Under the pieces are notes generated by a model that saw only the letters and a program-made list of their open reading frames with translations, was not told the DNA's origin and searched no databases. From assembly GCA_022539475.1 (NCBI GenBank), contig VCMS01000019.1:276215-340214 (forward strand): a DNA stretch of 64,000 bases, in the 5' to 3' direction. Each line of letters opens with the position of its first letter. Position 1 is the stretch's first letter. Positions 30,187 through 52,076 of this stretch are shown here, piece by piece. Position numbers and translations under genes: made by a program. Source of the stretch: Gracilaria domingensis (taxonomy: Eukaryota > Rhodophyta > Florideophyceae > Gracilariales > Gracilariaceae).

Positions 30187-31119
30187 CCGTAACCACTGCT
30201 CATTTTTGAAACTCGTGTGACATCATCTTGCCGTCCATGTTGCGAGCTAACTAAAACAACAAAAACAAACCCTGTCGCTGTCGGGTAAACACACATGCAC
30301 CAATTCATCATTGTCGAATCTATCGTCGTCACCAAATGAACAGTACCTCGCGAACGCCAGCAACACTGTTTGGAACGAATGAGAGTCAGTACGAAATCTT
30401 GATGCTATTCGTCGTGTTCCTCGTTTGTAGCAATATCATTCCTTCACACATCCGAGGCTGTGGCTGTGGAGAGGGCTAACGCTGGCCTCGCATAACCATG
30501 AGCGATGGCCGTCACAAGGTAAAGCCATTCTACTGTATCATGCAATCCCAGTCAACTTGTAATAGAAATACATCATCAAGTGCTACAGAAGTCCGTCGTT
30601 TCTGGATTTGCATTTTTTGCCCACTCCTTCGAACTGAGCAAGCCCATGACTAGCTCTGTGATGCTTGTTTAACACAGTGTCCCGCATTTTCGGTTGACTT
30701 ATGCACTAGTTGGTGGAAGCCTTCTTCTCCCTCGACCCCCGTAAATAGAGAACCCAAGTCATATTAATAGAAACTCCAGAAACGATGAATGTCAACCCAG
30801 TTCACAGTACGAACTCTTTTGCATATCCTAACTTTGTCCACTTTTGGCGCTCTGTGTACAGCGGAGTCCCAAATCGTCGCAGACCACTGCGTAACTTTAG
30901 CTTTCGAGTATCAATCCATGTGGAAATCTGAGTGCTTGGTCGCCGACGCCCAGTGCTCGCGCGCGCTGAAGTCTAGTGCGCAAACGCGTTTCACGTTAGA
31001 GCTGCGGCCTTTCTTCATGGCAGACGCAGCTCCAACATCGCGCGCTTCTTGAGCGACGTGTCGTGGTGCGGGCTGCAGCAAAGCTGAGTGTCAAACAACA
31101 TTACAGTGAATAGCAGTAC
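30187..31119. other. intergenic up to the Harbinger element; one small possible secreted ORF
   Basis: No recognised gene. An ATG-started frame at 30789-31052 (87 residues) opens with a leader-like segment (LLHILTLSTFGALCTA) and could encode a small secreted peptide, but nothing else supports it. The right edge carries the target duplication TCA at 31120-31122. Confidence 0.3.
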
Positions 31120-31122
31120 TCA

Positions 31123-31160
31123 GGCCCTGCCTTAACAAGCGTTGACCACGCGTTGTCGTT
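31123..31160 (+). repeat. Harbinger left terminal inverted repeat
   Basis: Begins GGCCCTGCCTTAACAAGCG and continues TTGACCACGCGTTGTCGTT. Preceded by TCA. It pairs with 41823-41860. Confidence 0.85.
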
Positions 31161-31178
31161 GTCGTTGACGAGACTTGT

Positions 31179-31978
31179 ACGATGCTAAGTGGCCAGGATA
31201 TGGTCCCGCTTGGGGCCTCTACGCTTTTCCTAAACCGCATCAAACCTAGTTTTTCTGTAAGGAAATCTACGTTCCAGAAGACGCCAAAGACCCTTGGAGC
31301 TTGCTCTGGTCCTCCAAGTTGCAGAGTTGCATAATAGAGCATGCCGCTCTTTTGATCTGGCAGCTTGCACACCCTGCGCTCCACACACGCACCCCGCGCT
31401 TGCGCACCACCTGCGCTATTTTGATTTTGCCCTACCCTATCTCTCCCCATCGTTCGTTGTTGTCTCTGCGGCAACACGGAGTCTTAAGCCTCTCTAATAG
31501 TCGCCACTACGCCACGAACTCTATTTCACATTGCCTCTTTGTAAGCAGAGTAACCGCCGGCGTCTCGTGCCATCGTCCAAAACAGGGCCGCTTTCTCTGT
31601 GTTGCAGCTCACAATACCCTCTCTGACTCTCGACAATTGCCCACAGGTAACTCTCTCTCTGAAATCTGCAATTCAAAACTCGGAAACACCTGAGTCTTCC
31701 CAACAGCGTCTTTCAGAAGTCCCGTTGAGTCGTAGTCCACTGCAAACTGAACAACATCTAGTCTCTATGTCGAAAATTACAAATGCTCCGCCCGTTCGAC
31801 GTAGTCCCCGCAAAACAATCTCTAACGCTCACAATCGCACCGGTATTCCAACCGAGACCAACACTACACAAGACCCAGAGTTTGCATCATGTCAGTTCAA
31901 AGATCGCGAGAAGGCAGTTCACTTTTATTCGTACTTGTGCTAGAGAACTGTGAAAGATCTTCATGATATTTCAAAGCA
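31179..31978. other. element interior upstream of ORF1
   Basis: Open frames of 60-130 codons overlap here without clear domains. The frame at 31599-31943 contains an AT-hook-like RRSPRKT and could be a 5' exon of ORF1, with an intron starting near 31930 (GTACTTG) and ending shortly before 31979. Not demonstrable. Confidence 0.3.
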
Positions 31979-33175
31979 ATGGAAGCTCGTTTAAGTTCCC
32001 GCTCGAAGGGGTCACTGATTGCAAGGTGCATGGTATATGTTTTTGTCCTTACTGAAAAAGGAACAGCGTTTGATGAGCTCATTCGCAAGAATCATGGGTG
32101 CAGAGATTACCAAGCTTGGGTACAAGCTTCAATTCAAGGCTGCAGAACGTGGGACATTCTCCCCGAAGTTCAGACCTTGATCCAGCGGTTGCATCAGTCT
32201 GACAAAAAACCAGAAACCAGTGCAGTGCGAGTCGTTATGAAGGGAGGTATTAATCCGGACATTTGTGTAGGCGAGAAGAAAGCTAACTTTTCGCTCAATG
32301 AGTTTGCGCGTCTTCTTGTCCTACTCAGGGATGACAACTTATGCCGCCATGCGCTGTTGAAAGCATGTGGATTGGAACTGTTAAAGGATGAAATGGGTTG
32401 TCGCATTACACGCGAAGCATTCTGGGGTTGCATCGCACAGAGATTTAAGAATCCCCTCGTTGACTCCAAGGAGAACTTTACAGGGCACCTGGAAGAAGTT
32501 GACTCTAATGCTCGGGCGCTTTGTGAAAGGAAGGCTTCTGTACTTAAGGAACAGTTCTACGACGCAAGGCGCCATTTTACTGATGTTTGTGATAAGTGGT
32601 CCGCCTCCGGGCAGAATGACCCAGACCGAATCGTTTCTTTTCTTGAGCTTACAGGTACTGGACACTACACAATGAAGTCGAAGAGGACGCTGATCATGTT
32701 CTTGGTATGCAGGATGGGTACTCCTCGGGAGGAAACAAACCTACTCCAATTGACATCGAAACTAATCGACAACGGTGCAGGGGGCCTCGATGAAGGTATT
32801 AATCAGAGCACTGCGCGCGAAAGCGGAGACACAAAGTCACAAAAGAGACGCAGCTCCGACATACAGGGAAGTCTAAACGAAATGTCGAAGTCGCTGAGCA
32901 ACTTTACTGGCTACGTGAAGCAGCAGTTGGAGAGTCACCCGGAGCGAAGTGAAAACAGGCCGAAGCGCGTTCGATTCGATGTTGAGATTTCCAAGGAGGA
33001 GAAACGCCTTGCTGGTGATGTACTCACAAGCGTAGAGATGCACAAGCGCGCTATTGAACTTGGAGGAGATAGTGAGGTCCAGGAAATGCTTCTCGGGATT
33101 TTGCACCGCAGCAAGAAACGCCTCAAGGACTTCTGCGAAGACAGGAAAACTGGCGATCGCGACAAGCAGAATTGA
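31979..33175 (+). CDS. Harbinger ORF1-type DNA-binding/accessory protein (tentative)
   Basis: 398 residues with an ATG start. The middle part (residues about 100-210: NFSLNEFARLLVLLRDDNLC, then FWGCIAQRFKNP, LKEQFYDARRHFTDVCDKW, DPDRIVSFLEL) has the helix and aromatic pattern of Myb/SANT-like domains carried by the second protein of Harbinger elements. The C-terminal third is charged and helical (RPKRVRFDVEISKEEKRLAG) with nuclear-type basic patches and possible coiled coil. In characterised Harbinger elements this protein binds the subterminal repeats and brings the transposase to the nucleus and the ends. I infer the role mainly from position next to the left terminal repeat. The frame is intact. 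Confidence 0.5.
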   Translation: MEARLSSRSKGSLIARCMVYVFVLTEKGTAFDELIRKNHGCRDYQAWVQASIQGCRTWDILPEVQTLIQRLHQSDKKPETSAVRVVMKGGINPDICVGEKKANFSLNEFARLLVLLRDDNLCRHALLKACGLELLKDEMGCRITREAFWGCIAQRFKNPLVDSKENFTGHLEEVDSNARALCERKASVLKEQFYDARRHFTDVCDKWSASGQNDPDRIVSFLELTGTGHYTMKSKRTLIMFLVCRMGTPREETNLLQLTSKLIDNGAGGLDEGINQSTARESGDTKSQKRRSSDIQGSLNEMSKSLSNFTGYVKQQLESHPERSENRPKRVRFDVEISKEEKRLAGDVLTSVEMHKRAIELGGDSEVQEMLLGILHRSKKRLKDFCEDRKTGDRDKQN

Positions 33176-33375
33176 TTTCTAACTTGCCATTGTCTCTTCA
33201 GTTTCTTGTTGTCGTAGGTACAGATTCATTGTTGATTAGAAAATGCTAGGGGCTCTATTTCTGTGATCGTGGTGGCGAAAGTGTAGTAGACACTAGCCAC
33301 CGGGTGGTGGTGGGATGCGATCACTGTTATGCTTCGTAAATGAACTACGCTTTGCTTCCATCCTATCTCTTTATC

Positions 33376-33645
33376 TCATATCTTTCGCTCTCTCCCAAAC
33401 GAAAGCACTATCATTTTCTTGTAGATCGCTTCTATCTCGATTTTCAAGGTTCTATATTCCTTGTTGATATCTCTCTGGAGTTCATTGCCAAGTTTCGGAG
33501 CTTCTCCAATGCTTTCCAGGCCCGTGTAAACGAACAGTGAATCACTATCGCCGTATACCTTCGCATTGAACGTATCTCGTGCGACAGGCAAGCCACTGAC
33601 GACATCATGCATTCTCTTCACAGTCGCAGGCTTTACCATGAACAA
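33376..33645 (-). pseudogene. POLA1: DNA polymerase alpha catalytic subunit fragment (captured)
   Basis: About 90 residues. RDTFNAKVYGDSDSLFVYTG contains the family-B polymerase motif C (YGDTDS in functional enzymes), followed by APKLGNELQRDINKEYRTLK and IEIEAIYKKMIVLS, the order and spacing seen in DNA polymerase alpha after motif C (…LGN…VNK.Y…LEIDIDG…). The Ile normally before YGD is missing and Thr is Ser. Both sides are cut: the frame stops just after the IVLS segment, before the conserved lysine-rich KKKY box, and the upstream side joins PA200-derived sequence near 33645. It lies within the Harbinger element, in the same orientation as the transposase. Non-functional. Confidence 0.8.
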
Positions 33646-36600
33646 ATTGGTGAATTAAACACTTGCAAACATCCAGCAATCCCTGAACGTACCTTCCACC
33701 GGTTGTCCTTGGCAGTCACCTCCATTTGAGATACGACTTGATCCACGACCTTCTCCGAAGGAGGTACCTTGCGAAATAAATGACAGGGTCATACGGCATG
33801 AGACACACGCTCTTGATTTGAATCGTTTTAACATGAGAATAAAGATGGAATCAGCTTTGAAACACAACTTTCAAAGCCCTGTACCCGACCATTCCATTGT
33901 GAAGTGGACACAAATCTACACAGCGTCTCTCTTTGTCTCGAGCGACTCCTCTTAACCTGTTCGGCTGCGTGGGCTTTCTCAGCTTCTGTATCCGTCATTT
34001 TAACGTCTTCGTCAACTTCAGCATCAATATCTGCTTCTTCCCCATTGCCACCTTCCATAATACTTAGACTGCTCAAGAGCTCTTCCAAGTTCTCGTCAAA
34101 TTTGGATCTGTAGTCTGCAGGCATATCAATGGCAACTAGGGCAAGGCAACGCGCAACTTCTTCACGCACAGTCTTCAACTCATGATCGAACCCGACTTCT
34201 GCTATAAGTGGTTTGGTGAGTTCTTTCGTGAATCGCACCATACGCGGATCCTCTGGATCTGTTATATCTCAAACGCATGAGTGAAGATAGCGCAATCTTC
34301 TGGCTTGCTGCTGGGCAACTGGGCCCTCTTCCATTCCAACAATGAGTGGCTTGCTCTCAAACAGCCAGTTCTGCAATCCCGTGCGAACCTTGTATCCAAC
34401 TGTTTCTTTCCCGGAAGTACTTATCAATCGAATGATTGTACCGCAATTGATCTTTCCTGTAGGACCAGAAATCTCGTTCAGAAAGCTGACAGCGAGTTGT
34501 TCCACACTGGCTTGCATACATTTATCCTTGCATTCAAGATGATTTAAGCCTCGACATCAGCCAGCCAGCACTTCTCCGGCAACAACCTTGACATCTTTGT
34601 CCTTGACTCCTTCAATGATACACTCGCGTTTCAGCTTGATCGTCTCTACGAGCTCCGTTAACGTTGGATGCGCAGCGTCATAGCAACTTTTCCCCCAAAT
34701 CCTTGCAAACGCCTCGTAGTATCGCACACTAACAAGATTGAGTGTATCTTTTGATCTAGGATGCCATGAAGTAGGCCACTGGCGTCCTCCGTACACAATC
34801 CAGCAGCGCTCACCGTCATTTGTACGAGAAAGAAACGTCAAACCAAGTCCACCCATCACCGCAAGGTCGATAGGGCGTAGGCCGCCGTCCGAAGCGTCAT
34901 CATGGTGTAAAGCAAGAGTATGAATCAGCTTCCGAACATACTCTTTTGAACCTATAACAGATGAGAAGGTCATAAGTGCACTATCTCCCGACGAAGACCA
35001 ATCTATTAATCCAAGGGAAGATCGTCTATCGTTCTTGCCATCTCTTTTCGCCATCTTCTCACTAAGGGCAAGCATGAGAAAAACTGCTCGTGAAGAAACT
35101 TGACGCAAGGCCATGATGTCTGAAACCATACTGCGAGTGAAGAAGTCTGCAACAGCTGCCGAGGGAGGCCGATCGTCCCGAAGCAAAAAGTACAACACCG
35201 TTGTGATCAATATCTCGGTCTTCCAGTGCGTTCCATTACCTTTCGTCTTCGTGACCCCATTCAACTCGGGAACGTCCAAACCTGGAGAGGTCAATAGGCT
35301 CAACAAGTGCTCACTCAGATCAACATAGTGCTTCTGTCTGTTTTGCTGATCTAGCTGTTCAGACGCATTTAAGACATGGCGTGGAATAGTTTCGAGGTCT
35401 TCACCAATCTGTCGCAATTGACGAAGTCGTAGTGGTCTGACGAGATCGGAAAGATTAGCGAATAGGACTGTCTAGGCACCCGCACCGTCTGCACGTTCCG
35501 CCTTCGACAATGCAAACAATATGGTCTTGATCATGAGGGAAAACAGAGACCAGTCACGCATTATCATAGGAGCAAGTGCAGAGCTACGTAGGATAGATGA
35601 TGAGCCAATGATCTGCTCATAAGAGATTTCGCCGTCTTTCCATAAGGGGTTCGTTTTGTTTGAGGCGCCTGAATCTCCCATATCATCTTCAGTCTTGATA
35701 AGAGTATCTGTGTCTTCAGATGATTTCTTGGTCTTCAGACTTTCCTTATTGTACGACCCAGAAGCTGCGCTTCGAAGGCGATCGATGACGGAGAGAACTT
35801 CCCTCTTTCGAATGTGTGGACGAACGATTCTCAGTGCTCTTGTGAGAACTCCACTCGCTTCAGAACGAAAACGAGGGAAGTCGTTAAGAGCCATTTCCGA
35901 GAGTGGACTTACCATAGTTTCGACTGTCCTCAAAGCGCCGGCTCCACCTCTGGCCCTAATACTCAACCGCATTTCATGATGAGCTTCAATTCTAAGCTTA
36001 ATGATAAAACGCGACATTGTTCTTCCAACTACTCCTTCACATCCGAAAGGTCGCTTCACTGAAATGACAGACTTGTACGAAGACTTGTAGCTTCGAGACG
36101 CGTACATAGTTTGCTGACTTCGGTCTCCTTTTCTGAACCGCTCATGAGCAAGTTCAATCGGTTCAAGACAGCGCTACAATAGAGCGCCGTCATCGGGCCG
36201 GCACAGCAACACTTTCTTCATATTAAGCGATACCAAAGAATATAGTCTCTTCCACATACTCGTCACGAACTTGTATCCATTGCTTTCCACTCTTTCACCT
36301 CCAAAACCGACTTGAATTGGCTTCTTCAAAGCCAAACGAGCATCGGACCCGGTTACTGTAGTACTTCCTGCTACGTGTTTGTCGAGAGCCTTGAAATGAT
36401 CTGGCATAGCACCTGCAAGGAAGCATCGACCACCTTTCTGGAGCGCATGCAGCAGGCGCAGCACTCTGAACAAAACATCGCGATCTGTTGTGAGCGACTT
36501 CAGTCCTTTATCTTCGGGAGAGTAGTTGCAAAGCTCCTCTGCCTTGTTCATGAACAGTTCAACCAAATGTTCACCTTGTCTCCATTCTTCTTCTGTTGGA

Positions 36601-38700
36601 ATGTGCCATTCAAAGTAGTAGATTCCTTCGTCTTCTTTTGGCTAATGCTCTGATACTGTTCCTGGACCAAATTTTATTTGAACGGATGTTAGTCCTTCAT
36701 GAACACCTCGAAGCAGTCGACCCCCGTCCTTGTAGGTCAGGTGAGACGATTTGTCCATTGCTAGACGAATAATTAGGGCTATCTCATCAAGATGGTCACC
36801 TATCCCACACCCTACGGCACGGCATGCTTGTGCGAGCATACGAATTCTCCAAACCATTTCCGTTCCACTTACAGTAGCCAAACACTTCTTGGTAGTTTCG
36901 ACAGCAGCACAATCGTCAAGTATGCTCCGGATCAAAGACGGAACGAAAATGGACACTGAAGACGCACCTCTTGAGAGTGTAGTTGCAGCTGCTGCAGCTC
37001 TGACCAGGACCCCATAGTACTTCATACCATTTTGGCAAGCAGACCCAGTTAGTTTCTGGGCAATTCGGTGTGTTGCTGACTCAGCATTCGTTCCAGGAAG
37101 AGCTCCGAACAGGTTCTCTATATCCACAGAAAACATGAAGAAAGAAAGATGGGAATCGCCTGAACTGTACACCGCATTTCTATTCTTCTTCGGAGGTGCT
37201 TCAAGAGATTCAAGTTGTGAGAATGTGCGATCCAAAATCTGTGGCACGTAGTCCTCTAGGAAGTCCTCAAAGCCACTACTGTGATCTTCCTCGAAAATGC
37301 TTTGCAGCCTAGCAGCGGCACCCGCGATAAACTTTAGAGTATACTCGGTCTTTCCCAGATCGTTGGGATCGATTCCCGGCAGTGTTAGCTCAAGCGCTTG
37401 GGTTAGGTAGTCCATCCCATTCAGAAATATGTCTCCATCTACAAATAAAAGGGTCAAAGACGCAAGAAGCTTAAAGGCAGCGAAAGTACGGTGACGGGAA
37501 GAGACGGAACAAAGACCTTCGGCAGCTTCAATAAGCAGGGGTTCGACAACCTTCCCAGGCTGTAGTAATGCTAGCTCTTTTGCTGCAGTTGCCGAATGCA
37601 TGGATAATTTCATGACCTTGGAATGTAATCCGTGATGAATAAGCGGGCGTAAAATGTGAACGAGCTTGTCAATAATATCTGGAGTGAGACGATGTTCACT
37701 TGGAGCTACTCTCTTTGTAGCACGGCCATTCAAAACTCTCGTGAGTACTCTTGCCTTTGTAGCTTTCCGCTCTTCATTCACACCGGATGAAAGATGGGAC
37801 GGGACATGCGACAGAAATGTGCCGGTACAGGAAGACCAAGAACCACTATTACTCTGATGGAAGTAATTGGCCATGAGGGCGAAGAATCGTTCCGAGTATT
37901 CCAAGGCCTCAGAATACTTCGGAGATAATGAATATACAGCAAAGATCGCAAACATTGATATATTCTTTCCATCTATCAAGAAATGCAAGTGCGTTGGACA
38001 GTGTCGGTCAATCTGACCGTGAGAGGCGTACCAACCCAAAGCCAACAGAAAGGCAGACTTCATGCGACTGTGTTATCCAGCGAAAGATACGGCGTCCAGT
38101 CATGCACACATGGCTGGTGTCGAGCCAATCTCGAAAACATGCTCATCCAGATGGTGTTCCAATCACTGGGACAAGATATGGTCTCCCATATCTTCATAAC
38201 TTCTGGTACCCAGCCAGACCACGAGTCGGCTCGGGAGGGCAGGACGTGAGAAAGAAGGAGAAGCGCTCTGAATTTGACATCAATATCAGTAGAATGTAAC
38301 CTGTGCGCAAACTCATTCCATATGTTTTCTGCGCTGTCATCAGGAGTCAGGAAGTTCCTGCTCTTCGTGAGCAGAAAAGCGAGATTTCGGCAATGTGAAT
38401 CTCTGACATCCCTGCCGATATACGGACTGCCGTCAATACATTCATTATGCACTTCAATGATGCGCTTCACGATTGCACGGCACGGGATGCCGTCGGGAAT
38501 CACACAGAGTCTCTTGGTTAAAACACGTGAAGCACAGCGCGCCATCTTGGAACGTAGCCCCATATCGATTGAAGGCGACAGAGCGCCCCTGATCATGATG
38601 TTGATGAAGAACGGAAATTCATGTGGTTCAAAGGCATGCTTGAAGTCAAGGTAATGACCAATGCGCTTTTCCAAAGCGGCAAGATCGCGTTCAAAGGCAC
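33646..38700 (-). pseudogene. PSME4: proteasome activator PA200/PSME4 (BLM10) fragment, captured and decayed
   Basis: About 1,650 codons of HEAT-repeat protein with landmarks known from plant and animal PA200: WNTIWMSMFSRLARHQ, SERFFALMANYFHQSNSGSW, LVHILRPLIHHGLHSKVMKL, LPGIDPNDLGKTEYTLKFIA, then EWHIPTEEEW, RMVRFTKELTKPLIAEVGFD and TAKDNRWKVRSGIAGCLQVF. PA200 caps the 20S proteasome. The first ~100 and last ~150 family residues are absent. From 38063 down to about 33660 one frame is kept, yet it contains in-frame stops at 36642 (TAG), 36174 (TAG), 35472 (TAG), 34557 (TGA) and 34269 (TGA). The first ~600 bp is in a different frame. A retained intron is likely at 33765-33890. It cannot make a full protein. 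It sits inside the Harbinger terminal repeats. Confidence 0.82.
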
Positions 38701-39774
38701 TTCGAGTCTATTCCATACCGTAACAGTTCCATCAACCGACTCAATTAGAATATAATTACCTGACTTGTTCCACTTTAACGAAAGCAGTGGTCCACTATGT
38801 CTCAGAAGGCTTTGCTTAATTCTCCAGTCTCACTGCAAACTTTTGAAACCCCATCATATGTACCGGTTGCAAGCATTGTTCCAGTTGGAATCCAATCTAA
38901 AGAGGTGACAACGTTTGATACATGTTTGCTCAAGGTGCTAGATCGTGTTCGTTCGGCTGCATGAGGCAGTACCAAAGACTGTGCAGCTGCTGCCGCTGAT
39001 ACTGACGCTGACGCTGAAGAGGGGGCTGGAAAAGTGGTAGAAGTAGGCCAGATTCGAGCTGTAGAGTCTCTCGCAAATGCTGCCAGAACGGGCGTAAGCG
39101 GGTTCCATGCTCGGACACACGCCTCTGATGTATATCCTTTGAAGCTGAGAACTTCTGAGTGTGGGACGTCCGTGTTCGATTGGTATATTCCTTTGCTTTG
39201 TCAATGTTCGTCGTGGGTTTCTTGTCGTCTAGGTCCATCATCACGGCGTTATCACTGGTTCCATTGATTACATTGACCTGCTGACGTGGCTTGAAAGTCC
39301 TGATTGCATAGGAAACGATGGACGTCAAGCAAAGAACTGACGCGGTCCATGGCGTGAGTGCCTTCTTTACTTTCGTCCATGAGACTATCTTCGATTGCGA
39401 CAAAGTGTACGCTGCGTTGGATGAAGGAAATCAGAGCACCTGGAGGTATTTGAGAGCCATCGATTTTGGTCCTGCTCACTTGGCTCTCGTAGCCGAAAGC
39501 CAAAAGCGCTCTGAAAGTATCCTATAAAGATAGGATCAAGTAGAAGAAACGAACGAAAATAAGAAAGGAACACACACACACGTAGAGTTAGCGTGGAACA
39601 GTGGTGCACCGCGAGAACAAGTTGAGTACAAATGTACAAAAGTACACAGAGCTGTTGTGCGGTGCATAGGTACACGTTCGATGCGGACCCTGAACGTAAA
39701 GGGAACAGTTTGTTGAACGTACCAGACTGCTGCAAATAACGGAATGCTAGATCATTGATCTCACGTGAGCTCAC
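38701..39774 (-). pseudogene. TBL1/TBLR1 (HOS15-type) LisH-WD40 protein fragment, captured
   Basis: The LisH start INDLAFRYLQQSG (39774 onward) is followed, after what looks like an intron (about 39520-39725), by LLAFGYESQVSRTKIDGSQI and PPGALISFIQRSVHFVAIED, the N-terminal arrangement of TBL1/TBLR1. Further on, in shifting frames, come AWNPL and DSTARIW, then VVTSLDWIPTGTMLATGTYD and SGPLLSLKWNKSGNYILIES with DGTVTVWNRLE, the first WD40 blades. It ends there and joins PA200-derived sequence near 38700, so most WD repeats are missing. Functional proteins are subunits of histone-deacetylase corepressor complexes. Frame breaks make this copy dead. The intron remnant suggests DNA-level rather than cDNA-level capture. 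Confidence 0.78.
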
Positions 39775-40062
39775 AGGAGTGTGAGTCTAAAGCTTGGACG
39801 ACCTGAGTGGATAAATGTTGAGTCCCAGAATTCGCCCCGGTGGACGGGTGTATGTGATCAACTCAGAACGACCTTGACCGCAAGGAAAAACACAACGAAG
39901 CTGCACGCAAAGACGCGAGCGCGTCTTCAAAAACAGAATGCCACACAAGAGCCAAGTAAAAATCGCAGTTAAACCGAGGTGCGAAGTGAAACCGGCGCTG
40001 CTCATAACGAAGAATGAAATGTAAGCGCCGGAAAACCAACCAAGACACGATTTCCATAACTC

Positions 40063-40112
40063 GGTCTCCTCTTCTGAGAGGCTCATGAGCACTGTTGGAA
40101 TGTGCCATTCTT
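40063..40112 (-). pseudogene. sliver of PA200 sequence, internally deleted
   Basis: TGTTGGAATGTGCCATTC (40093-40110) is identical to 36593-36611, the EWHIPT codons of the PA200 fragment. Directly beside it, 40063-40092 matches 36121-36146 (CGGTCTCC.TTTCTGA...CTCATGAGCA). In the larger fragment these two blocks are about 450 bp apart. So this is a second, deleted copy of part of the same PA200 segment, lying between the TBL1 fragment and the transposase. Confidence 0.55.
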
Positions 40113-40321
40113 ATTCAAAGTCTTAGATACCACCATGTGATTGGTAGCAACGCCCGGAGATTCAAAGACTACTTAAGTTACATGGCGCACCACGAGGCAT
40201 GGGACGCTTTAGCCCCTTCTGCGCAATAACTTCCACTAAAGCGTCCCTCTTGGACAGAACAAAAACTCCATCTGCCTCAACCTCTTCTTCCTCAACACAT
40301 ACCCAGTCCGCGTGCCTCTCC

Positions 40322-41440
40322 TTACAACATTGATACCAGGCAAAGCACATCTTGAACGCGTTCACAAACCTCTTCCTCAGTAATTTCCTTGCAGCCAGAT
40401 AATCTGTTCTCGATGCAGAAGTTATGAAGCTTCATGCATACCGAGACAATTTCACAGTTCACACTAACAGAAAACTCCAGAAAGTTCAGAATCCGCCATC
40501 TGGCAACCAGCATACCGAAAGCCTGTTCCACATGAATTCTTAATGAAGACAGATAAAAGTTAAACCCATCCTCCCAGCACGTTCTTATCTGCGAAATAGG
40601 TATGGGACAAATCAGGCTGTTAGTACAGACATAAGCTTCGTCCCCAACAATCCAGTATTCCACCTGAAGATTATTTTCAGCCAAAAAGCGCCCAAGCTTA
40701 GAAACAACATGGGCCAGTTGGTCATGCGTAGAACCCACGCATCGTATGGAGACATCCATGAATCGGTATCGTGAATCCACAAGAGCCTGAACGGGAAGCG
40801 AGTAGCAATTCTTACGACAATAAAATGCAGCAGCATTTGGACACGAAGGCTTCTTCATTTGGACAGCAATTCCATTGATTGCCCCAACACACCCAGTTAG
40901 AGGGCTCAAACGTTTTCGAGAGTGCTTGAACTCCAACGAAAGCTCTTCTAGCCCTTCAACAGAATTAGGAAGACCTGGTAGTTTCAATTCGTTCATCAAC
41001 GCCATTCGAGTGTCATGGAAGACATGGTAGGCAGTTGAGCGCCCTACGTGAAAAGGAAGCATTATGTCAGCATAACTGGAACCCGCCAGCATACGCAAAG
41101 TGATAGCTAAGCGCGTCTTCGGGGTAATTGTGAGGCGTTTTGATCTGTCTCCCATTTCAACGTTCCTCACAAGACGATGACCTACTCTGTCGAAAAGTTC
41201 GTCAAAGTTATCCCGCGTCATACGAAACACGTTTCTGAACGCTCGAGAGTTTAGATTTGCGGAGAGGGTTTCGTAGGTTAGTAATCGTTTGATGATAGTC
41301 GGTTGTCGTTTCTTGACCCTGTGCTTATTGAGTAAGATTTGGACGCCATTGAGACAGGGGGTAAACGCTTCAATAGCAAATGCGCTGCTCATGAGGACAG
41401 CTTTTCGCTTCGCTGTGTGCGATCCAACGAACGCAACCAT
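40322..41440 (-). CDS. PIF/Harbinger transposase (DDE_Tnp_4), first catalytic Asp replaced
   Basis: 372 residues from the ATG at 41440. An N-terminal helix-turn-helix region (FRMTRDNFDELFDRVGHRL, TPKTRLAITLRMLAGSSYAD, VGRSTAYHVFH) precedes the RNase H-like catalytic core: GCVGAINGIAVQMKKP, FMDVSIRCVGSTHDQLAHV, YWIVGDEAYVC and RIHVEQAFGMLVARWRIL. The second Asp (GDEAY) and the final Glu (VEQAFG) of the DDE triad are present. The first position, normally Asp in GAIDG, is Asn here (GAING). The frame is otherwise intact and of normal length, so it is a recently disabled or unusually divergent transposase. It is oriented toward the element centre from the right terminal repeat. Confidence 0.88.
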   Translation of the reverse strand: MVAFVGSHTAKRKAVLMSSAFAIEAFTPCLNGVQILLNKHRVKKRQPTIIKRLLTYETLSANLNSRAFRNVFRMTRDNFDELFDRVGHRLVRNVEMGDRSKRLTITPKTRLAITLRMLAGSSYADIMLPFHVGRSTAYHVFHDTRMALMNELKLPGLPNSVEGLEELSLEFKHSRKRLSPLTGCVGAINGIAVQMKKPSCPNAAAFYCRKNCYSLPVQALVDSRYRFMDVSIRCVGSTHDQLAHVVSKLGRFLAENNLQVEYWIVGDEAYVCTNSLICPIPISQIRTCWEDGFNFYLSSLRIHVEQAFGMLVARWRILNFLEFSVSVNCEIVSVCMKLHNFCIENRLSGCKEITEEEVCERVQDVLCLVSML

Positions 41441-41822
41441 GGTGGTTGAGCCGTGTTCGACTCCAAACAAGAGCGATGATCATTGCGAGAAACGCTTATA
41501 TCACCAGACAACGATTCAAAAGAGTACCTCTCGATTAATGTGAGAGCACAGGAAAAGAGTTTGGTGAGATCATGGAAAAGGAGAGCGGGGATCTACATGA
41601 TCTACGCCGTCGACGAAGAGCAATCTGCTTACCGCAGAATATAGCGTACCGATAAGTACGCGCTACGACCGACAGTGACGCACTTTGACGAGGCACAGAG
41701 GTTTGGCGAGGCACAGAGGTGCATAATAGAATGAGAAGGGTATTGGTCCTTTCAGTGGAACGGGGCAGTAGGTGGTTCAATTTACAGCCAGGCTTTCTTG
41801 AAAAACTCAAGATATCAACCTT

Positions 41823-41860
41823 AACGACAACGCGTCGTCAACGCTTGTTAAGACAGGGCC
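41823..41860 (-). repeat. Harbinger right terminal inverted repeat
   Basis: Inverse of the left repeat with two mismatches. It ends CAGGGCC at 41860, followed by TCA. Confidence 0.85.
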
Positions 41861-41863
41861 TCA

Positions 41864-42238
41864 GTGTTCGCCGACTTCCATAACTTTTTGGCTCCCCGAG
41901 AAAACTTATGACGCCGTGCCGTCCCCTCGCGTTACGTGACAAAGGGGATGACACGTGATATACTTTGCAAGTTGTGGGCAATTCCTGAACGCAGGCGTTC
42001 AAACACCAAATCTGCGCATAATATATGAAGCGTACGGTGTACCTTACAAGGGTCCCCTACGTTTCCAGCCCACCTCTTGTAAGCGTCGGACGGTTTGCGA
42101 AACCATGCCGTTGCACCCGCAGGCGGGCTGCTGTCTGCAGGGCTTGCAGCTGGCCTGCAGACAGCAGTCCTCCTGCTCCTGCTGCTCTCCATTCGAGTCT
42201 AGGGTCCACAATGCATGCTGGAACTAGCTGGAACCGTT
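41864..42238. other. spacer with a perfect 14-bp hairpin
   Basis: Between the Harbinger element and repeat copy A. It contains a perfect inverted repeat, CTGCTGTCTGCAGG (42128-42141) with CCTGCAGACAGCAG (42154-42167) and a 12-nt loop. No gene recognised. Confidence 0.55.
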
Positions 42239-42676
42239 CGTCTGTGTTCTGCAAAGTGGAATATAGTCTGTTCGCTTTGGAAACTAAGCTAGTTTTGGGT
42301 CTATTTGGGGCGCGCGAGGGGGTAGCAGGGGCTGGCACTCAAAAAATCAAGAAATTTTGGAATATTAAATTCCATCTCGCGCAGTTTAGTTCTTGGGTCC
42401 CCTAGTTTTTATAGAGGTTCTACTTCGCCGCATGGTCCCATTCACTCTTTTCCGCGACCCTCTCTCAAAACTGCACTCGTGCTAGTTTGCGTTTCCATTT
42501 TCTACCATGTTGCAATGCCAATCGCAACTCATCCCACCTCAATCATCCCATCACTTCTTCCCAGTCCACACCACCCCCGCTATTTACCCATTTCTCGCCC
42601 ATCACGCGTTCATTTTGTAGAAGTCAGGTGCACAACTCTCCCCCTTCTCGTATACCCGCCTCGCCCCAAAACGGCT
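42239..42676. repeat. dispersed repeat, copy A
   Basis: Starts CGTCTGTGTTCTGCAAAGTG and is closely similar to 62918-63382 in the same orientation, through TGGAATATTAAATTCCAT, TCTTTTCCGCGACCCTCTCT and ending at CGCCTCGCCCCAAAACGG. Differences are mainly single bases plus a few small indels. It ends at the stop codon of the adjoining minus-strand ORF, so it could be the 3' region of an element whose body is that ORF. No terminal inverted repeat or poly-A seen. Confidence 0.75.
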
Positions 42677-43606
42677 TCAAATCCCTCCCATCCTTCTCTC
42701 CTCCTGTCCCCTCAGAATCCCCTTCGCAGTCCTCGCTACCTCCGCCGCACTCCTAAACCCAGTCACCACCGGAGCTCCCACTCCCTCCCGCGGCACCTCC
42801 TCCACCACCTTCTTCATCTCCTTACGCCTCTTCTTCAGACGGCTCTTCCCATCCCCAACCCCACCACCCTTTGTCTTCGGTGTCACAGGAGACCCCTTCT
42901 GCACCGCCACCCTTCCCACACTTCCCTTCTCCGTCTTTCCCTCCACACCTCCTTTCACCGTCTCCTCTTCCACCAATCTTGGCCTCTTGCACAGCTCCTT
43001 CACCTCCTTCTCCAGCACGTCCAACCTCTCGTTCAGAACCCTATTCTCCTCCCGAAACTCTCCAACCTCCCTTCCCGCACACTCCACTATCCCATACACA
43101 TGATTTCTCATCTCCACTCCCAATACCGACAACGAATTCCGCAGGCTCGAAATCGCCTCAACCGAAACACCACTACCACCCCCACTCAGCACCACACCGC
43201 CCATTTCCGTTACAATCTCCACAATTCCATCGTCCAGTTGCTCCTTCATCACCAACCCCAACATCCCCACCCTCGCCTTCATCTCCCCCACAAACCGCAT
43301 CTCTCTGTCACCCTCTCCGCCCCCACTCTCTATCTGGTCTCCAACCTCTAACTGACTCAGATGCACCGCACCCCTTCTCTCCATTGCGACCCCCTCCACC
43401 TCCAATTCTACCCCCTTCTCCACCTCATCACCATCCCCTCTCCTCGCCTCACACTTCTTTCCTTCATCGGCCACTTCCTTCTTCTGCGACATCCGACCAG
43501 CCGCCGTAATCACGTCCTCTTCCCGCTTTGGTGACGGCGTCTGCGGTACCTCCTCCCCCTCCAACAGCGCCAACAGCTCCTCATCCTTCACGTATCCGTT
43601 CGACAT
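42677..43606 (-). CDS. orphan charged coiled-coil protein, probably element-encoded
   Basis: 309 residues from the ATG at 43606 (SNGYVKDEELLALLEGEE). Rich in Glu, Lys, Gly and Val. A helical stretch (GREVGEFREENRVLNERLDV, LEKEVKELCKRPR) looks like a coiled coil, and the C-terminus has basic patches (SRLKKRRKEMKKVVEE). No family recognised. The coding strand is strongly purine-rich over about 1 kb, unlike neighbouring genes. It abuts repeat copy A and so may belong to that element. It could also be a composition-driven false frame: the complementary strand also stays open over long stretches. Confidence 0.35.
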   Translation of the reverse strand: MSNGYVKDEELLALLEGEEVPQTPSPKREEDVITAAGRMSQKKEVADEGKKCEARRGDGDEVEKGVELEVEGVAMERRGAVHLSQLEVGDQIESGGGEGDREMRFVGEMKARVGMLGLVMKEQLDDGIVEIVTEMGGVVLSGGGSGVSVEAISSLRNSLSVLGVEMRNHVYGIVECAGREVGEFREENRVLNERLDVLEKEVKELCKRPRLVEEETVKGGVEGKTEKGSVGRVAVQKGSPVTPKTKGGGVGDGKSRLKKRRKEMKKVVEEVPREGVGAPVVTGFRSAAEVARTAKGILRGQEERRMGGI

Positions 43607-43702
43607 CTTCAGAAAAAGAAGTAGTAGTTGGATCGAAGTTTCCGCTGCGATACAGTGCAATCGAGCTAAACTGTGCTGTCCACCCCCACTGTCCAACCAC
43701 AC

Positions 43703-44239
43703 GGGCTATATCCAGCACCATGATTGTCCCTGTTTCCCTCATCCCATTTCCCGCCAAAACATCTACTGTACACCTCCGCACCTTCCAATATTTAAGCGCC
43801 ATCTCTCTGTCCCCTCTTCACATAGTCCCCACCCACCTCGCCTCGACCGGCGATATTTTTCTCTTCCACCATAACCTCACTCGATGGTTATAGCAAAACA
43901 GGAAGATATTGCCAGTGGAGGCAAGCTAGGGACTAGTGATTGTACTTAGAGTTGCTCACCCTCTGTCTCGACTGGGGGCATGTTCTTCTTCCGTCACATC
44001 CTTTGTGGGTTGTGACAAAAAAAGAATATGTCACCACTCGACACCGGATGGGTAACTATGATAGCACGTAGAGTAGTTCATCCTCCCTCTCAGCGTCCAC
44101 TGGGGATATATTGATGTTCTCTCACATCCTTTCCCGGTTGTGCCACTAGAAAAAAACATCTCCAATAGAGACGGAGAATAGAGTCGTGATAACACGTAAA
44201 GGTAACAATGTAATAAACAATAAATTTATGCTACTATCT
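43703..44239. other. intergenic with imperfect direct repeats
   Basis: Contains two diverged copies of a segment with CCTCTGTCTCGACTGGGG / CCTCTCAGCGTCCACTGGGG followed by a TTCT.TCACATCCTTT..GGTTGTG block (about 43960-44015 and 44083-44140), a tandem pair of about 125 bp. No gene. Confidence 0.5.
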
Positions 44240-44566
44240 CTAACCAACCTTTCGAAAACCAGCTATGACATGAGCTGGGTTACTCGAGCCAAAGATGGCA
44301 GATCCTGCAACTGAAATGTTTGCACCGGCCTTCACTACTCCTTTCACAGTACTCAGTCCAATACCCCCATCCACCTGTATCCCTATTCTTGGGTACAACT
44401 CCCTTGCATGTCGCACCTTGTCAAGAACACCCTCCATAAACGCCTGTCCTCCAAACCCTGGCTCCACCGTCATCAACAATAACATGTCTACAACTCCTTC
44501 GTTCATAAGTGCTTCTACGACCTTTATAGACGTATTCGGGCGCAATCCAACTCCATCCTTTTAATT
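44240..44566 (-). pseudogene. RPE: ribulose-phosphate 3-epimerase, 5'-truncated
   Basis: About 105 residues corresponding to the C-terminal half of RPE: GLRPNTSIKVVEAL, then DMLLLMTVEPGFGGQAFMEG, IGIQVDGGIGLSTVKGVVKA and GANISVAGSAIFGSSNPAHV. The motif with the catalytic-side Asp (QVDGGI) and the phosphate-binding GSAIF are present. The N-terminal half, with the first metal ligands and catalytic Asp, is missing, and I find no matching exon upstream on the minus strand. The enzyme interconverts ribulose-5-P and xylulose-5-P in the Calvin and pentose phosphate cycles. This copy cannot work alone and is probably a fragment left by duplication or transposition. Confidence 0.8.
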
Positions 44567-44956
44567 ATGGCAATCCAAGTGAGCTATAGAACCCGTTCAC
44601 GTCATTTATGAAGCCAAAATGGCTCCTTTCATCCTGTATTCAAGCTCCCCGTAACTCGTACTTTACAACTACTTTACAACTCAGGTTCGAAATCAGTTTC
44701 ATTCATTGTACACTTTCTACTCTTCCACCTACTTTTCATAAAACATCATCACACTTTGTGGCTTGTCGTCTCATACAAGCCCTATCATTCCTTCAGTACA
44801 ATCACATATCATACATTTCGCTCACTTTCACAAAGTGAACCATGTTCCCGTTCTGCGCTTCCCAACCGTTTGTACTTAAGTATCACTCTTTACCCCAGCA
44901 GTTCTCCGCCCCATCTTCCATTTCTATCGTCACACAAAAACATTCGAACACTTGCA

Positions 44957-45859
44957 ATGAACTCCCAGTCCGACATGCCTCCGACTCCGCCTCCGAGTCC
45001 CAGATACTCTGACGTCCCTCAGGCCTCATCTCCCGCCCGAAGGACTCGAGCCGTTATTGTTGGAAGGGGGCGTATAGGTACCATGCTGGCGAACGAAGAA
45101 GATACGGTCATTTCCGCACTCGAATTCTGCAGCATGGCTGCTACCTCTCATCTTTCTGATGTACCGATACTAGTTTGTGGAAGAACGAACACCCTGGAGA
45201 CCGTAATTCAGGCTTGACCTTATTCGCTCAGAGAGAATCTCGTTTTCTTCCAGAATGGAGACATCATACCATTGCTTTCGAAGCTCGGTGTGGACAAATG
45301 TTCAAAAGTTGTCTTATACGTTGCTGTCCCCTCAAGAAACGCAGCTCCGCAGGATGGTGTCACTCCTCAAAGTCCGGATGGTCTCACTGTCGTAACAGGA
45401 AAGTGGGCCTCCAACGTTGCAGACAGGTTTAGGTCTATGGGTCTCACTTGCGGGGTTGTCGACGAAGATACATTTCTCGTAAGCTATTATGAGAAGCTCG
45501 TGTGGGTATCATCGTTCAACATCGTCGAAGTCTCCAGAGGTTTCGTTCCTATGGACGTAGTCGCTACGGAGTGCAGTACGGTTGTGCTCACAATAATGAA
45601 AGAGCTGTTGAAGATAGTTTCGCTTAAGACAGGTACTACTTTCAACCTGGAAGAGACCGTTGGGCGACTTCTTGCATATGGGAAAACTCTCGTTGGCTTC
45701 CCTACTTCTTTCTCCGACTTTCAGTTTAGGAACGCGTACTTCTACGACTTTTCCCGCCAAGAAAGAAACATTGTAGGCGGTGACCCCGCTCCTTTTCATA
45801 CAAACTACGTCAACGTTGTTAAGGAAAAGTTATCCCCCTCCCCATTCCCCCAGCTTTGA
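44957..45859 (+). pseudogene. ketopantoate-reductase-like Rossmann protein with in-frame TGA
   Basis: Starting at the ATG 44957, a Pro-rich leader is followed by the nucleotide-binding loop AVIVGRGRIGTML, then DVPILVCGRTNTLETVIQA and a TGA at 45215-45217. The same frame continues with ENLVFFQNGDIIPLLSKLGV, VVLYVAVPSR, LTVVTGKWASNVADRFRSMG and DEDTFLVSYYEKLVWVSSFN to 45859. The order matches an algal/plant group of ApbA/PanE-like dehydrogenases with unknown substrate. Without the stop the protein would be about 300 residues. The TGA replaces one residue between two well-conserved blocks. Nonsense mutation or assembly error is likelier than selenocysteine, because this position is not a catalytic one. 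Confidence 0.6.
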
Positions 45860-45861
45860 GG

Positions 45862-47037
45862 TTAGAAAACATGACTTTTCGGTGTTGTAAACCTTTTAGA
45901 GATAGTTAAACATAAAAGATACTTTATCGAAATGACCTGTTCCCTAACTTCACGTACAATGGACTGTCGAAGTGAAAACCGGAAGTTATCCACAATTTCG
46001 CAACTTTTATCGCCGGGATAGATAACAAACGCATCCATCTTCTGCAACAGGTCTCCAATAGCAGAATCCACTTCTTCTCTCCACTGCCACAGTTTGTTGT
46101 ACACGAAATTGGAATTGAGGTTCACCTTTGGTACCTTCTGACGAATTTGTCTGTAAGTCTTGCTCCGAGTAGGTGTCCCTTGTGTTCCAGACCGCTCGCC
46201 AGAAACACTTGAACGTGCCATTCTTGCGGACAGAAGCACAACGTCATCGTCCTGCTGCTCCGCAGTTTCTGGTGCAGTTTGGGGTACAGATGGACCAGCT
46301 CCTTGTGCGGATTGCGCATCCGCGTCTGGAAGGGGACCTTTTATGATCTCATCTTCCTCCTCTTGCACAGCCGTCCCCTGCTGAACCGTCTGTTTCGACG
46401 CAGAAGATCCCCTTGTGTCGACGGTTTGATTCATCGCAGGAGAAGCCCTTTTCGACGCAGTGGGCTTCGTAACGGAGGTAGACTTTGTTTGACCTGTCCG
46501 CTTCGTAGCTGGGGATGCTCTCGTCTTCATAGACCGCTTCGTAACAGACGACGGACCTGCCCGTGGAGGTGCTACTGATGCGCTATCTCTCGGTGTTGAT
46601 GAACTTCGAATTGGCTCCGTGCGGCTTGTCGGCGTCATCACCTCACTCATAGCGCTCACCGTTCCTCGCTTGGACGCCGGAATGCTGGCTGCCACCGGTT
46701 ACATCATTTTCCCATCCCAAGGAGCGGCCGTCCGGAGATCCTGGATATATTGTGGAAGATCCAGGCCCTCCGCCCGGTAAGGGTAGAACGTCTGACCGCT
46801 TCGAATGATGAGAATATTATGAACCATCACAAGACCTGGGTCCAATTGCTTCCCGAGCAAATCGCGGCGTAGAACACTTCCAATTCCATGCAAAAACGCT
46901 TACCCTACTATCACCTTTCCTTCATTCTCAATATCCATCTGCAGAGAAACCCGCATTCCACCTTGCAATAATCGAGTGCTCCGCCGAGTGCGAGGAGTCA
47001 CGCTTTGCGTACGCTTTCGAACACGAGTTGGCTTCAT
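45862..47037 (-). CDS. unrecognised basic, Ser/Thr-rich protein(s), possibly spliced
   Basis: The main frame (45862-46695, 277 residues) begins with a low-complexity region rich in Ser, Thr, Pro, Lys and Arg with repeated TKRT/TKPTASKRASPA-like words. An acidic linker follows and then a helical C-terminus (FVYNKLWQWREEVDSAIGDL). The same frame is open just upstream (46699-46893: GLVMVHNILIIRSGQTFYPY) and is separated by a stop. Another start at 47037 gives a basic MKPTRVRKRTQSV that runs into a good donor (GTAAGC, near 46904). It may be one spliced gene, perhaps an accessory gene of the neighbouring Plavaka element. Family and function unknown. Confidence 0.35.
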
Positions 47038-47441
47038 GTTGAACAGCTATTGCAGTGAAAGGTGTATATTAACAATACGTTCGCTCTGGACGATACAAGA
47101 ACGGATGCGAGCCTTTTAAATGGCGACTTACGCTGGGCACCCCCGCTTTCGGCAGCTCCTCCCAGCGCACTGCCAGTCTCGTCCGTGTCCTGTCCGTGGC
47201 CGCTCGCACGCTGATTGTACGCTTTAGAGTCGTGGAGTTCGCGCAATGATGACTCACGCGAGCAATGGTCGCGCTCTCTAATCATGCTCTTCAAATGCTT
47301 TGCATAGTAGTCAAGAGAACACTCATTTACTTCCATGTACAGCCTACTCCCGCGAATACACGTGGACAGCGGCGCCAACGTACCGGCGGCCGGGTGTAGC
47401 GAAATCACTGCGGGGCGGCGTGTCTCGGGAGGTCCCGGGAA

Positions 47442-48142
47442 GGCGCCGAAATGTGGCCAAAACGTGCCCGCGAGCGGGGAGGGGTCGGTCGTGATAGGGT
47501 ACCTACCCTAACACGACCGGACCCCCCCCTAGCGGGGATAAAATCGCACATTTTTCAAAAAATCGTCCAAAACGTGCCCGCGGGCATAAAATCGCACATT
47601 TTTCAAAAAATCGTCCAAAACGTGCCCGCGGCGGGGGGTCCGGTCGTGTTAGGGCACCTAACCGCCCCCCCCGCGGCATAAAATCGCACATTTTCAAAAA
47701 ATCGTCCAAAACGTGCCCGCGCGGGCGGGGGGGTCCGGTCGTGTTAGGGTAGCTACCCTAACACGACCGACCCCCCGCGCCCGCGGGCATAAAATCGCAC
47801 ATTTTTCAAAAAATCATTCAAAACGTGCTCGCGGGCGCGGGGGTCCGGTCCTGTTAGGGTAGCTACCCTAACACGACTGACCCCCCCCGCCCGCGGGCAT
47901 AAAATCGCACATTTTTCAAAAAATCGTCCAAAACGTGCCAGCGGGCGGAGGGGTCCGGTCGTGTTAGGGTAGCTACCCTAACACGACCGACCTCCCTCCG
48001 CCCGCGGGCATAATATCGCACATTTTTCAAAACATCGCCCAAAACGTGCCGGCGGGCGGGGGGTCCGGTCGTGGTAGGGTAGCTACCCTAACACGACCGA
48101 CCCCCTCCGCCCGCGGGAAGGTTCTGGCCACATTTTGGCGCC
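47442..48142. repeat. palindrome-bearing tandem array, 110-bp period, inside an inverted pair
   Basis: Six related units. The four best preserved have the word AGCTACCCTA at 47751, 47861, 47971 and 48081, exactly 110 bp apart. Each unit has two parts: a 32-bp perfect or near-perfect palindrome (GTGTTAGGGTAGCTAC and its inverse) and a direct box ATAAAATCGCACATTTTTC preceded by a Cys-Gly-rich CCCGCGGGC stretch. The array is enclosed by an inverted pair: 47442-47459 and 48125-48142 (GGCGCC.AAATGTGGCCA), 17 of 18 matching. It adjoins the 3' end of the Plavaka transposase frame. Confidence 0.85.
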
Positions 48143-51100: not shown

Positions 51101-51210
51101 CAGTAGTAGACCATGGGAAGAAGAAATGAACGAGAAACGACGACAAAGACTGCAAGGGAAGGGCGTCCGAAGGGAGAAGGAGGTCGAGCGACAGTCAAGA
51201 TCGACGTCAT
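48088..51210 (-). pseudogene. Plavaka (CACTA/EnSpm-type) transposase with one in-frame stop
   Basis: The main frame 48730-51210 encodes 826 residues. A C2H2-like start (YYCTHKKRGCPF...LQQHVNHFP) is followed by the transposase core: LQVYTDKSSTTLKQTSVTAY, LIFLNFSDELRHK, VAYFPTTLIEV, the Cys motif SPCHRCKG, then SPYSLFSFEPLHNLHLGISK and KFHLLDHLVDDIRRLGSIKY with DAGIYEHAHLLFKRHYKKT. These are the landmarks of Plavaka-family transposases. A stop (TGA, 48730-48732) follows FAMRGRSFT, but the same frame reopens at once and to 48088 encodes more of the family's C-terminal domain (KFSTVLVSGEDSETWVAQVV). So a single nonsense change probably split the original gene. Other conserved regions look intact. 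I could not identify CACTA-type ends. Confidence 0.8.
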
Positions 51211-51484
51211 GCTGAGAACGGAGAATATATTTTGAGTTTAAATCACGTGCTTTCGTTCAAAAAGGAACGTAGGTACACGTCGACCTCAACACAAGGGTGT
51301 ACTTCTCGTATTATCTACCACTGGTTATAAACCTCTGGTTTCCCAACGTTGTACGCTGTACACTTGTCCAATCTCGCACAGAAAAATAAATCTCTTCCCT
51401 CCGCCGCCGCCGCCGCCCGTCCGACGTCCGATCTTTTGTTACCGTCGTGATCCGTGCCATCCTCGCGTTCTACTCCGCTCCGTC
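51211..51484. other. upstream region of the Plavaka gene
   Basis: Likely promoter side of the transposase gene. It includes a CCGCCGCCGCCGCC run at 51400-51415. No gene. Confidence 0.4.
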
Positions 51485-51538
51485 GTACGTTTTTCCGCCC
51501 TCGCACTCGCTACGAAGTGCGAGGGCGGAAAAAAGTAC
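51485..51538. repeat. near-perfect hairpin
   Basis: Arms 51485-51507 and 51516-51538 (core CCGCCCTCGCACT / AGTGCGAGGGCGG) pair at 22 of 23 positions around an 8-nt loop. Confidence 0.85.
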
Positions 51539-51990
51539 CACGGATTACGAAGTAGCGTGCTGAGAATGGATTCCATTAAGCGGACATGAAGCGTACCTTA
51601 TTCTCTTTCTCCGCCCTCGTCGGACGCCTCCATAAAGCGGACAGCATCCGTATCTCACGGATGTATTCCGTGCAGTCTTTCCGTGCAGTCTTTTCGTACG
51701 TGCTTCCATTTCCTTCTACATATCTTTGTTCTAAACTAACCAATCCTCACCACGTCTCTTCGCGCTCTGCGACATGTAAACGGCAGGAAAAAGGCTTTGG
51801 GTTACTTTTGCGAGTTACTAGGTCCCTCGACTTTTCTAGCGCAACGTTTCTGTTTTGCTTTATCAATGGTACGTTCCATCGCATTTCAAATGTATCCAAC
51901 GGATCATTGACTAACTTATGGATACTTTCCGCTTGCGTATACAGGTAAATGACTTTTGATGCGTACGTAGCTCACGAGTTGCAGGTGCAG
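51539..51990. other. intergenic, no gene recognised
   Basis: Contains another CTCCGCCCTCGTC word related to the preceding hairpin arm (51608-51620) and a short open frame without motifs. Confidence 0.35.
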
Positions 51991-52076
51991 GTTCCTCAAG
52001 TAGGGAACCATGCATCTGGGCATGGTTCCCTACATGAGGAACGGAGAGGATGAGGCGCTTCGCGCCTCATCCTCTC
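51991..52076. repeat. two adjacent near-perfect hairpins
   Basis: Hairpin 1: arms 51991-52013 and 52020-52042 (GTTCCTCAAGTAGGGAACC...), 22 of 23 pairs, 6-nt loop. Hairpin 2, one base further on: arms 52044-52058 and 52062-52076 (GAGAGGATGAGGCGC and its inverse), 15 of 15 pairs, 3-nt loop. They are back to back, with different sequences. Confidence 0.88.

Follow-up and report, generated by a model that had tools for sequence, protein, structure and literature searches.

The red alga Gracilaria domingensis harbours a transposon of the PIF/Harbinger type that has, with high probability, captured pieces of three host genes and multiplied with this cargo aboard. The element lies in a 64,000-nucleotide stretch of contig VCMS01000019.1 (hereafter the window, whose numbering is used throughout). 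It is complete, spans 10,738 bp at 31123-41860, is flanked by TCA on both sides and holds, between an ORF1-like gene and a DDE transposase gene of its own, fragments of the genes for DNA polymerase alpha (POLA), for the proteasome activator PSME4/PA200 and for a TBL1/HOS15-type protein. Its features are as follows.

31120..31122, unstranded: left target-site duplication TCA
31123..31168, plus strand: left terminal inverted repeat, with 2 mismatches to the right end in the first 38 bp and 5 in 46 bp
31670..33175, plus strand: ORF1-like gene, broken in the window copy; left limit by position from copy C8
33404..33584, minus strand: captured POLA fragment, 86% identical to host locus C1:726617-726800
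33588..38701, minus strand: captured PSME4/PA200 fragment of 5.1 kb, 94% identical to host locus C11:284061-289182
38704..40050, minus strand: captured 5' part of the TBL1/HOS15-type gene, 85% identical to host locus C25:556302-557622
40163..41440, minus strand: DDE_Tnp_4 transposase (PF13359, E 1.5e-24)
41815..41860, minus strand: right terminal inverted repeat, pairing with the left end
41861..41863, unstranded: right target-site duplication TCA

The original prediction, made from the letters of the window, had placed three gene pieces on the transposase strand between the two ends. Pfam (for POLA and PSME4) and PDB matches bear this out, all on the minus strand, with the correction that the pieces are not spaced apart: TBL1, PSME4 and POLA abut within 2-3 bp and form one block of 6.6 kb in the 10.7-kb element. 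The POLA piece matches PF00136 (E 7.4e-13), and the best-matching of 29 PDB sequences are DNA polymerase alpha; the PSME4 piece matches PF16507 (E 5.6e-40), and all four of its PDB sequences are PSME4; the two top PDB matches of exon 2 of the TBL1 host locus are TBL1XR1. The host loci were looked for in the G. domingensis assembly (77.9 Mb in 680 contigs, labelled here C followed by a number; an extract of PMC10388701 gives the genome as 78 Mb). All three were found outside the element, open over the stretches examined: a frame of 1631 codons for POLA, one of 1963 codons for PSME4, so that the cargo is not the only PSME4 of the genome, and, with the intron removed, the 299 codons read for TBL1. 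Further POLA-like stretches, with stops, occur at C301:29993-30190, C147:124516-124710 and C43:64353-64544, at 54-56% protein identity to the captured piece; they are possibly pseudogenes or other captures.

The TBL1 piece was demonstrably captured at the DNA level. On the minus strand it comprises about 246 bp that precede the position of the start codon (39805-40050), exon 1 (39723-39804), an intron (39522-39722) and part of exon 2 (38704-39521). The intron measures 201 nt in the element and 203 nt in the host, with 178 of 199 aligned positions equal; in both it starts GTACGTTC, ends ATAG and keeps the GT...AG borders. Since an mRNA source would have lost an intron that is here retained with both splice sites, the source was DNA, as had been proposed from intron remnants. 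The host PSME4 frame needs no intron, and DNA and mRNA sources are therefore not distinguishable for the PSME4 piece, nor are they for POLA.

That the unit multiplied with its cargo is indicated by the other copies. When the left end was searched for in the genome, 37 matches came up, and some of these were paired at the distance of one element. From their surroundings 26 stretches were retrieved, each of which was compared with the window. In seven further assembled copies the 10.7-kb unit is present in full or almost so, with its cargo, at 98.0-98.6% identity (the copy on C28 is cut by a contig end). With that of the window, these eight copies collapse to five distinct insertion sites, because the flanks show C390/C28, C163/C87 and C4/C336 to be loci assembled twice. 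The recurrence of a 10.74-kb unit at five loci means that the two ends belong to one unit. The C390, C163, C8 and C4 loci are 9-21 substitutions apart in about 10.73 kb, and 155-163 substitutions, about 1.5%, separate them from the window copy (98.4-98.5% identical). Copy C336 is noisier, with 42 differences from its twin C4, so that some small differences may be assembly errors. These 10.7-kb copies make up the main lineage. An older lineage is represented by C67 (cut short) and C2, which are about 88% identical and retain most of the cargo. Both share the TBL1-PSME4 junction, so that the search for other elements with the cargo junctions, suggested in the original prediction, was successful; neither has the POLA piece or the complete PSME4 end. 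C2 extends over 22 kb owing to another transposon inside it.

Both ends can be seen at nine distinct loci, which comprise C2, five loci of the main family and three of a sister family considered below. Eight of the nine are flanked by identical triplets, TCA, TCT or TGA. For eight loci the flanks were joined with a single triplet and searched for in the genome as an empty site. The sister copy C216 has paralogous empty sites on C60, C151 and, twice, on C29, at 78-88% identity through the junction; the letters of three of the four were fetched and contain exactly one TCA in C60 and C151 and a variant triplet in C29. The family probably moved by means of its own transposase.

The inverted-repeat search pairs 31118-31168 with 41815-41865 at 88% identity. 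The original prediction had given the repeats as 39 bp with two mismatches; they are real, but this count holds for the 38 bp inside the TCA, and the 39th is a third mismatch. The TCA it had seen on both outer sides is present, and the repeats fall within the size usual for PIF/Harbinger elements (25-50 bp in an extract of PMC2572040). Of the two genes it had recognized, ORF1-like at the left and a DDE_Tnp_4 transposase at the right, both are confirmed, the latter by PF13359, matched at E 1.5e-24 in the window and 1.4e-25 in the sister family. PF04827 (Plant_tran) gave a sub-threshold match only (E 0.0016), and no PDB relative of the transposase was found at E <= 1. Intact copies display the blocks GAIDG, GDEAY and HVEQAFG, which we take to hold the catalytic D, D and E residues. 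In the window copy, codon 40874-40876 gives Asn where intact copies have the Asp of GAIDG, the transposase C-terminus is out of frame, and ORF1 has an in-frame stop and a frame change near 31940-31990. For these reasons the window copy is most likely a dead member of a recently mobile family. Copies C8, C163, C4a and C28 have ORF1 open along 540 codons (counted from stop to stop), and at two of the five loci (C8 and C163) ORF1 and the transposase (438 codons) are both open in the same assembled copy; the full transposase is also open in C390, C87 and C336, and the full ORF1 in C4 and C28. PIF/Harbinger elements usually have a second gene with a Myb/SANT-like domain. The ORF1 of copy C8 has two protein matches at E <= 0.001 among 7458 candidates, one of which carries PF02037, presumably the SAP domain.

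The pieces of cargo do not seem to be of one age. Differences from the host that are common to both lineages, some of which may lie on the host branch, affect 67 of 1258 sites in TBL1 versus 31 of 2225 in PSME4 (Fisher p = 6e-11). Given the open host frames, indels tell the order of capture more clearly than substitutions do. In exon 2 of TBL1, all five copies examined (window, C390, C8, C67 and C2) share four indels that disrupt the frame. For PSME4, 2,240 nt of the host gene were compared with the main lineage and C67, and no indel or stop common to both lineages was found in them. The window cargo has in-frame PSME4 stops at 36642, 36174, 35472, 34557 and 34269 and a frame change near 38076, which is absent from C67 and C2 in a further 160 bp of host gene compared. 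Five stops are common to all eight assembled main copies, which rules out an intact PSME4 cargo today; C67 has five different ones. Thus TBL1 was already broken when the lineages split, and PSME4, as far as it was read, was still open. The best reading of these data is a stepwise capture, in which TBL1 would have been taken up first and PSME4 later. The POLA piece is seen in the main lineage only; the older relatives may have lost it.

Between lineages, the element's own genes are conserved. Non-synonymous and synonymous divergences (dN/dS) are 0.061/0.333 (C2) and 0.034/0.209 (C67, 184 codons) for the transposase and 0.060/0.219 (C67) and 0.054/0.229 (C2) for ORF1. For the PSME4 cargo they are 0.099/0.154 (C67) and 0.107/0.153 (C2), and the non-coding stretches adjoining the element ends diverge by 14-17%, close to the dS of the cargo. 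Polarised PSME4 changes, non-synonymous to synonymous, number 51:25 on the main branch and 97:40 on the C67 branch, against a ratio of 2.88 to be expected without selection. The cargo decays near-neutrally, as a passenger or nearly so.

One might suppose, all the same, that PSME4 worked for the element or the host for some time after its capture. No disabling change common to both lineages was seen, the differences are fewer than in TBL1, dN/dS between lineages is about 0.6-0.7, and the 2,240 nt contain no indel in the main lineage versus six in C67. We consider a working period rather unlikely, since the ratios do not deviate significantly from neutrality (p = 0.19, 0.38 and 0.12), the main lineage has indels elsewhere in PSME4 besides the stops shared by all eight of its copies, constraint on ORF1 and the transposase is two to four times stronger, and late capture accounts for the same facts. 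The few differences in PSME4 are most simply read as a sign of late capture rather than of selection; an early capture with initial constraint could also have produced the pattern.

The sister family, of 8,543 bp, is present on C30, C216 and C12, in copies 7-14 substitutions apart. Its DNA is about 68-72% identical to the main family in ORF1 and transposase and 82% or more at the ends. Its spacer holds other foreign DNA: 1.6 kb at 93% identity to a coiled-coil-like gene on C64 and 0.26 kb at 82% to C3. Because both of these loci lie outside elements, they are probably the sources and not copies. The C64 gene matched no family above the cut-off and no PDB entry. To judge from open reading frames (ORFs) only, the piece matching C3 may read in the opposite orientation, and for this reason a common orientation of captured pieces is not claimed as a rule. 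The same spacer also contains a G+C-rich, low-complexity stretch of about 2.5 kb, open in several frames (4488-7008 of the C30 stretch, and likewise in C216 and C12). In both families, the foreign DNA sits between the 3' ends of the convergent ORF1 and transposase genes. This position may simply be the one least harmful to the element, and so reflect selection rather than a hotspot of capture. A bolder view is that of a self-mobile, gene-accreting lineage, whose spacer would serve as a permanent docking site for a succession of host genes, among them a proteasome activator gene of almost full length that remained open for a time, and may have worked, before it decayed; we hold this to be doubtful.

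The mechanism that we favour is the following. A PIF/Harbinger-type transposon with convergent ORF1 and DDE transposase genes would take pieces of host genes into the spacer between them, in steps, TBL1 before PSME4. Capture would occur by template switching or patch joining during the repair of breaks in the element, for instance in gap repair after excision, and the element would then move by ordinary cut-and-paste, cargo included. Six fragment borders were read by eye against the host, and the three piece-to-piece joins seem to be blunt or to share 1-3 bp, to the extent that 6-18% divergence permits a judgement. Template switching or patch joining is favoured because of such joins and because no inner terminal repeat was found in copy C8.

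It could be argued instead that a TBL1-PSME4-POLA chimera first arose outside the element, within a different transposon or at a rearranged host locus, and was then taken up in one step, as the direct abutment of the three pieces in one orientation might suggest. This is improbable, given that genome searches find the TBL1-PSME4 junction only inside elements of the 10.7-kb family and its relatives, and that TBL1 and PSME4 differ in age inside the element. A composite origin, in which host DNA lay between adjacent Harbinger copies whose outer ends then travelled as a single element (tandem insertion and re-mobilisation), follows a model put forward for plant Pack-CACTA and Pack-PIF elements (PMC8903248, extract). 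It predicts inner terminal repeats or their relics at the fragment borders, and none stands above the shuffled background in copy C8 (best match 19/33, against maxima of 18-21 in 30 shuffles), which speaks against a fusion of nested copies. Moreover, the fragments match three contigs (C1, C11 and C25), so that several events would be needed, and ORF1 and transposase are single and placed as in the sister family; we regard this origin as very improbable. Finally, the duplicated contig ends of the assembly (three pairs with identical or nearly identical flanks) could raise the suspicion of an assembly artefact, or of two unrelated elements with ends facing by chance, both of which are ruled out by the same structure recurring at five sites with different flanks and triplets.

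Several observations weigh against the reading of a mobile PIF/Harbinger element that captured its cargo stepwise. The flanking triplets (TCA, TGA or TCT) depart from the TTA/TAA that is customary for PIF and is found with most maize and about half of rice PIFs (PMC8903248, extract), and those of copy C8 are unmatched (AGA/TCA). For seven of the eight loci tested, that of the window included, no empty site was found in the genome. ORF1 matched no family in the scans run, and its predicted structure is poor (mean predicted local distance difference test score, pLDDT, 46), too poor for a structure search. As to the order of capture, one in-frame 3-bp difference from the host PSME4 is common to all five copies, the host comparison misses most of the 5' 2 kb of that gene, and TBL1 and PSME4 could have arrived together if PSME4 was constrained at first. 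The total of polarised PSME4 changes, 148:65, is somewhat under the neutral expectation, not significantly so (p = 0.12), and a 175-bp spacer stretch beside the cargo diverges by 7.5%, below the other non-coding parts. The junctions are old and were judged by eye.

A second transposon, of the Plavaka type and about 10.3 kb long, occupies 42239-52577 of the window, with a PF18759 transposase at 48733-51210 on the minus strand. Its left 6 kb contains a C-terminal piece of ribulose-phosphate 3-epimerase (44243-44560, PF00834, E 2.8e-25), and this region, across the epimerase piece, recurs in at least 24 further places at 94-98% identity (25 of 1584 candidates scored). It looks like a high-copy Plavaka family, of another superfamily, that also carries a captured piece of a host gene. 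The same two end points delimit a Plavaka copy inside the older Harbinger relative on C2 (C2:481821-494292), and on C252 another Plavaka end is close to a Harbinger transposase. Between the two elements of the window, at 41862-42238, is a repeat of about 375 bp that starts at the right triplet and has diverged copies, with the same starting point, on C5, C112, C33 and C113. Farther away, a 783-codon ORF at 60729-63077 has a weak match to DUF6589 (E 0.0014, below the cut-off), and at 62914 its end overlaps sequence similar to the left end of Plavaka. Over 98% of the query, the valyl-tRNA synthetase encoded at 1974-4817 is 100% identical to the G. domingensis protein.

Gene capture by PIF/Harbinger elements is already known from grapevine, maize, rice and a nematode, and is described mainly in land plants. 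The original prediction had called it little described; documentation is indeed scarce, yet elements that keep their own genes have been published in grapevine (PMC2528002, extract). There, as in G. domingensis, the PIFs keep a transposase and a second ORF; in Pifvine-3, the captured DNA is in the 5' region, whereas here 6.6 kb from three named genes lie between convergent genes and an order of capture can be proposed. In the Pack-PIF elements of maize and rice, PIF ends likewise enclose amplified fragments of host genes (PMC8903248, extract). These are non-autonomous by definition, and the Pack members of an example cluster average 535 bp with a 163-bp gene piece, whereas the G. domingensis family is 10.7 kb long and keeps its own genes. 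The name Pack-Harbinger that had been proposed is thus apt for the host gene fragments between the ends, but its strict sense of non-autonomy fails for the family, in view of the two loci where ORF1 and transposase are open. Turmoil-1 of Caenorhabditis elegans (PMC2572040, extract) is also of the Harbinger type and carries two host gene fragments, one with an intron; unlike here, they measure 131 and 205 bp, lie inside 760-bp terminal repeats and are known from one full-length copy. Pack-MULEs, gene-capturing Helitrons and CACTA elements, as outlined in extracts of the literature, similarly transduplicate pieces of host genes, mostly non-functional, and belong to other transposase superfamilies; enlarged CACTA elements in the red alga Chondrus are mentioned in an extract of a review. 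No report of PIF/Harbinger gene capture in red algae was found in searches of the open-licence literature, in which PMC8729191 and PMC8533490, among others, may hold a mention. New features are the size of the cargo (6.6 of 10.7 kb, from three named genes), the order of capture suggested, the fact that two families have used one spacer, and the occurrence in red algae.

This system combines source loci with several dated copies, and adds a sister lineage of greater age and a second family that made its own captures in the same spacer; the order and mechanism of capture thereby become testable. This finding should also prompt caution in annotation, as PSME4-, POLA- and TBL1-like ORFs in the G. 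domingensis genome may be transposon passengers.

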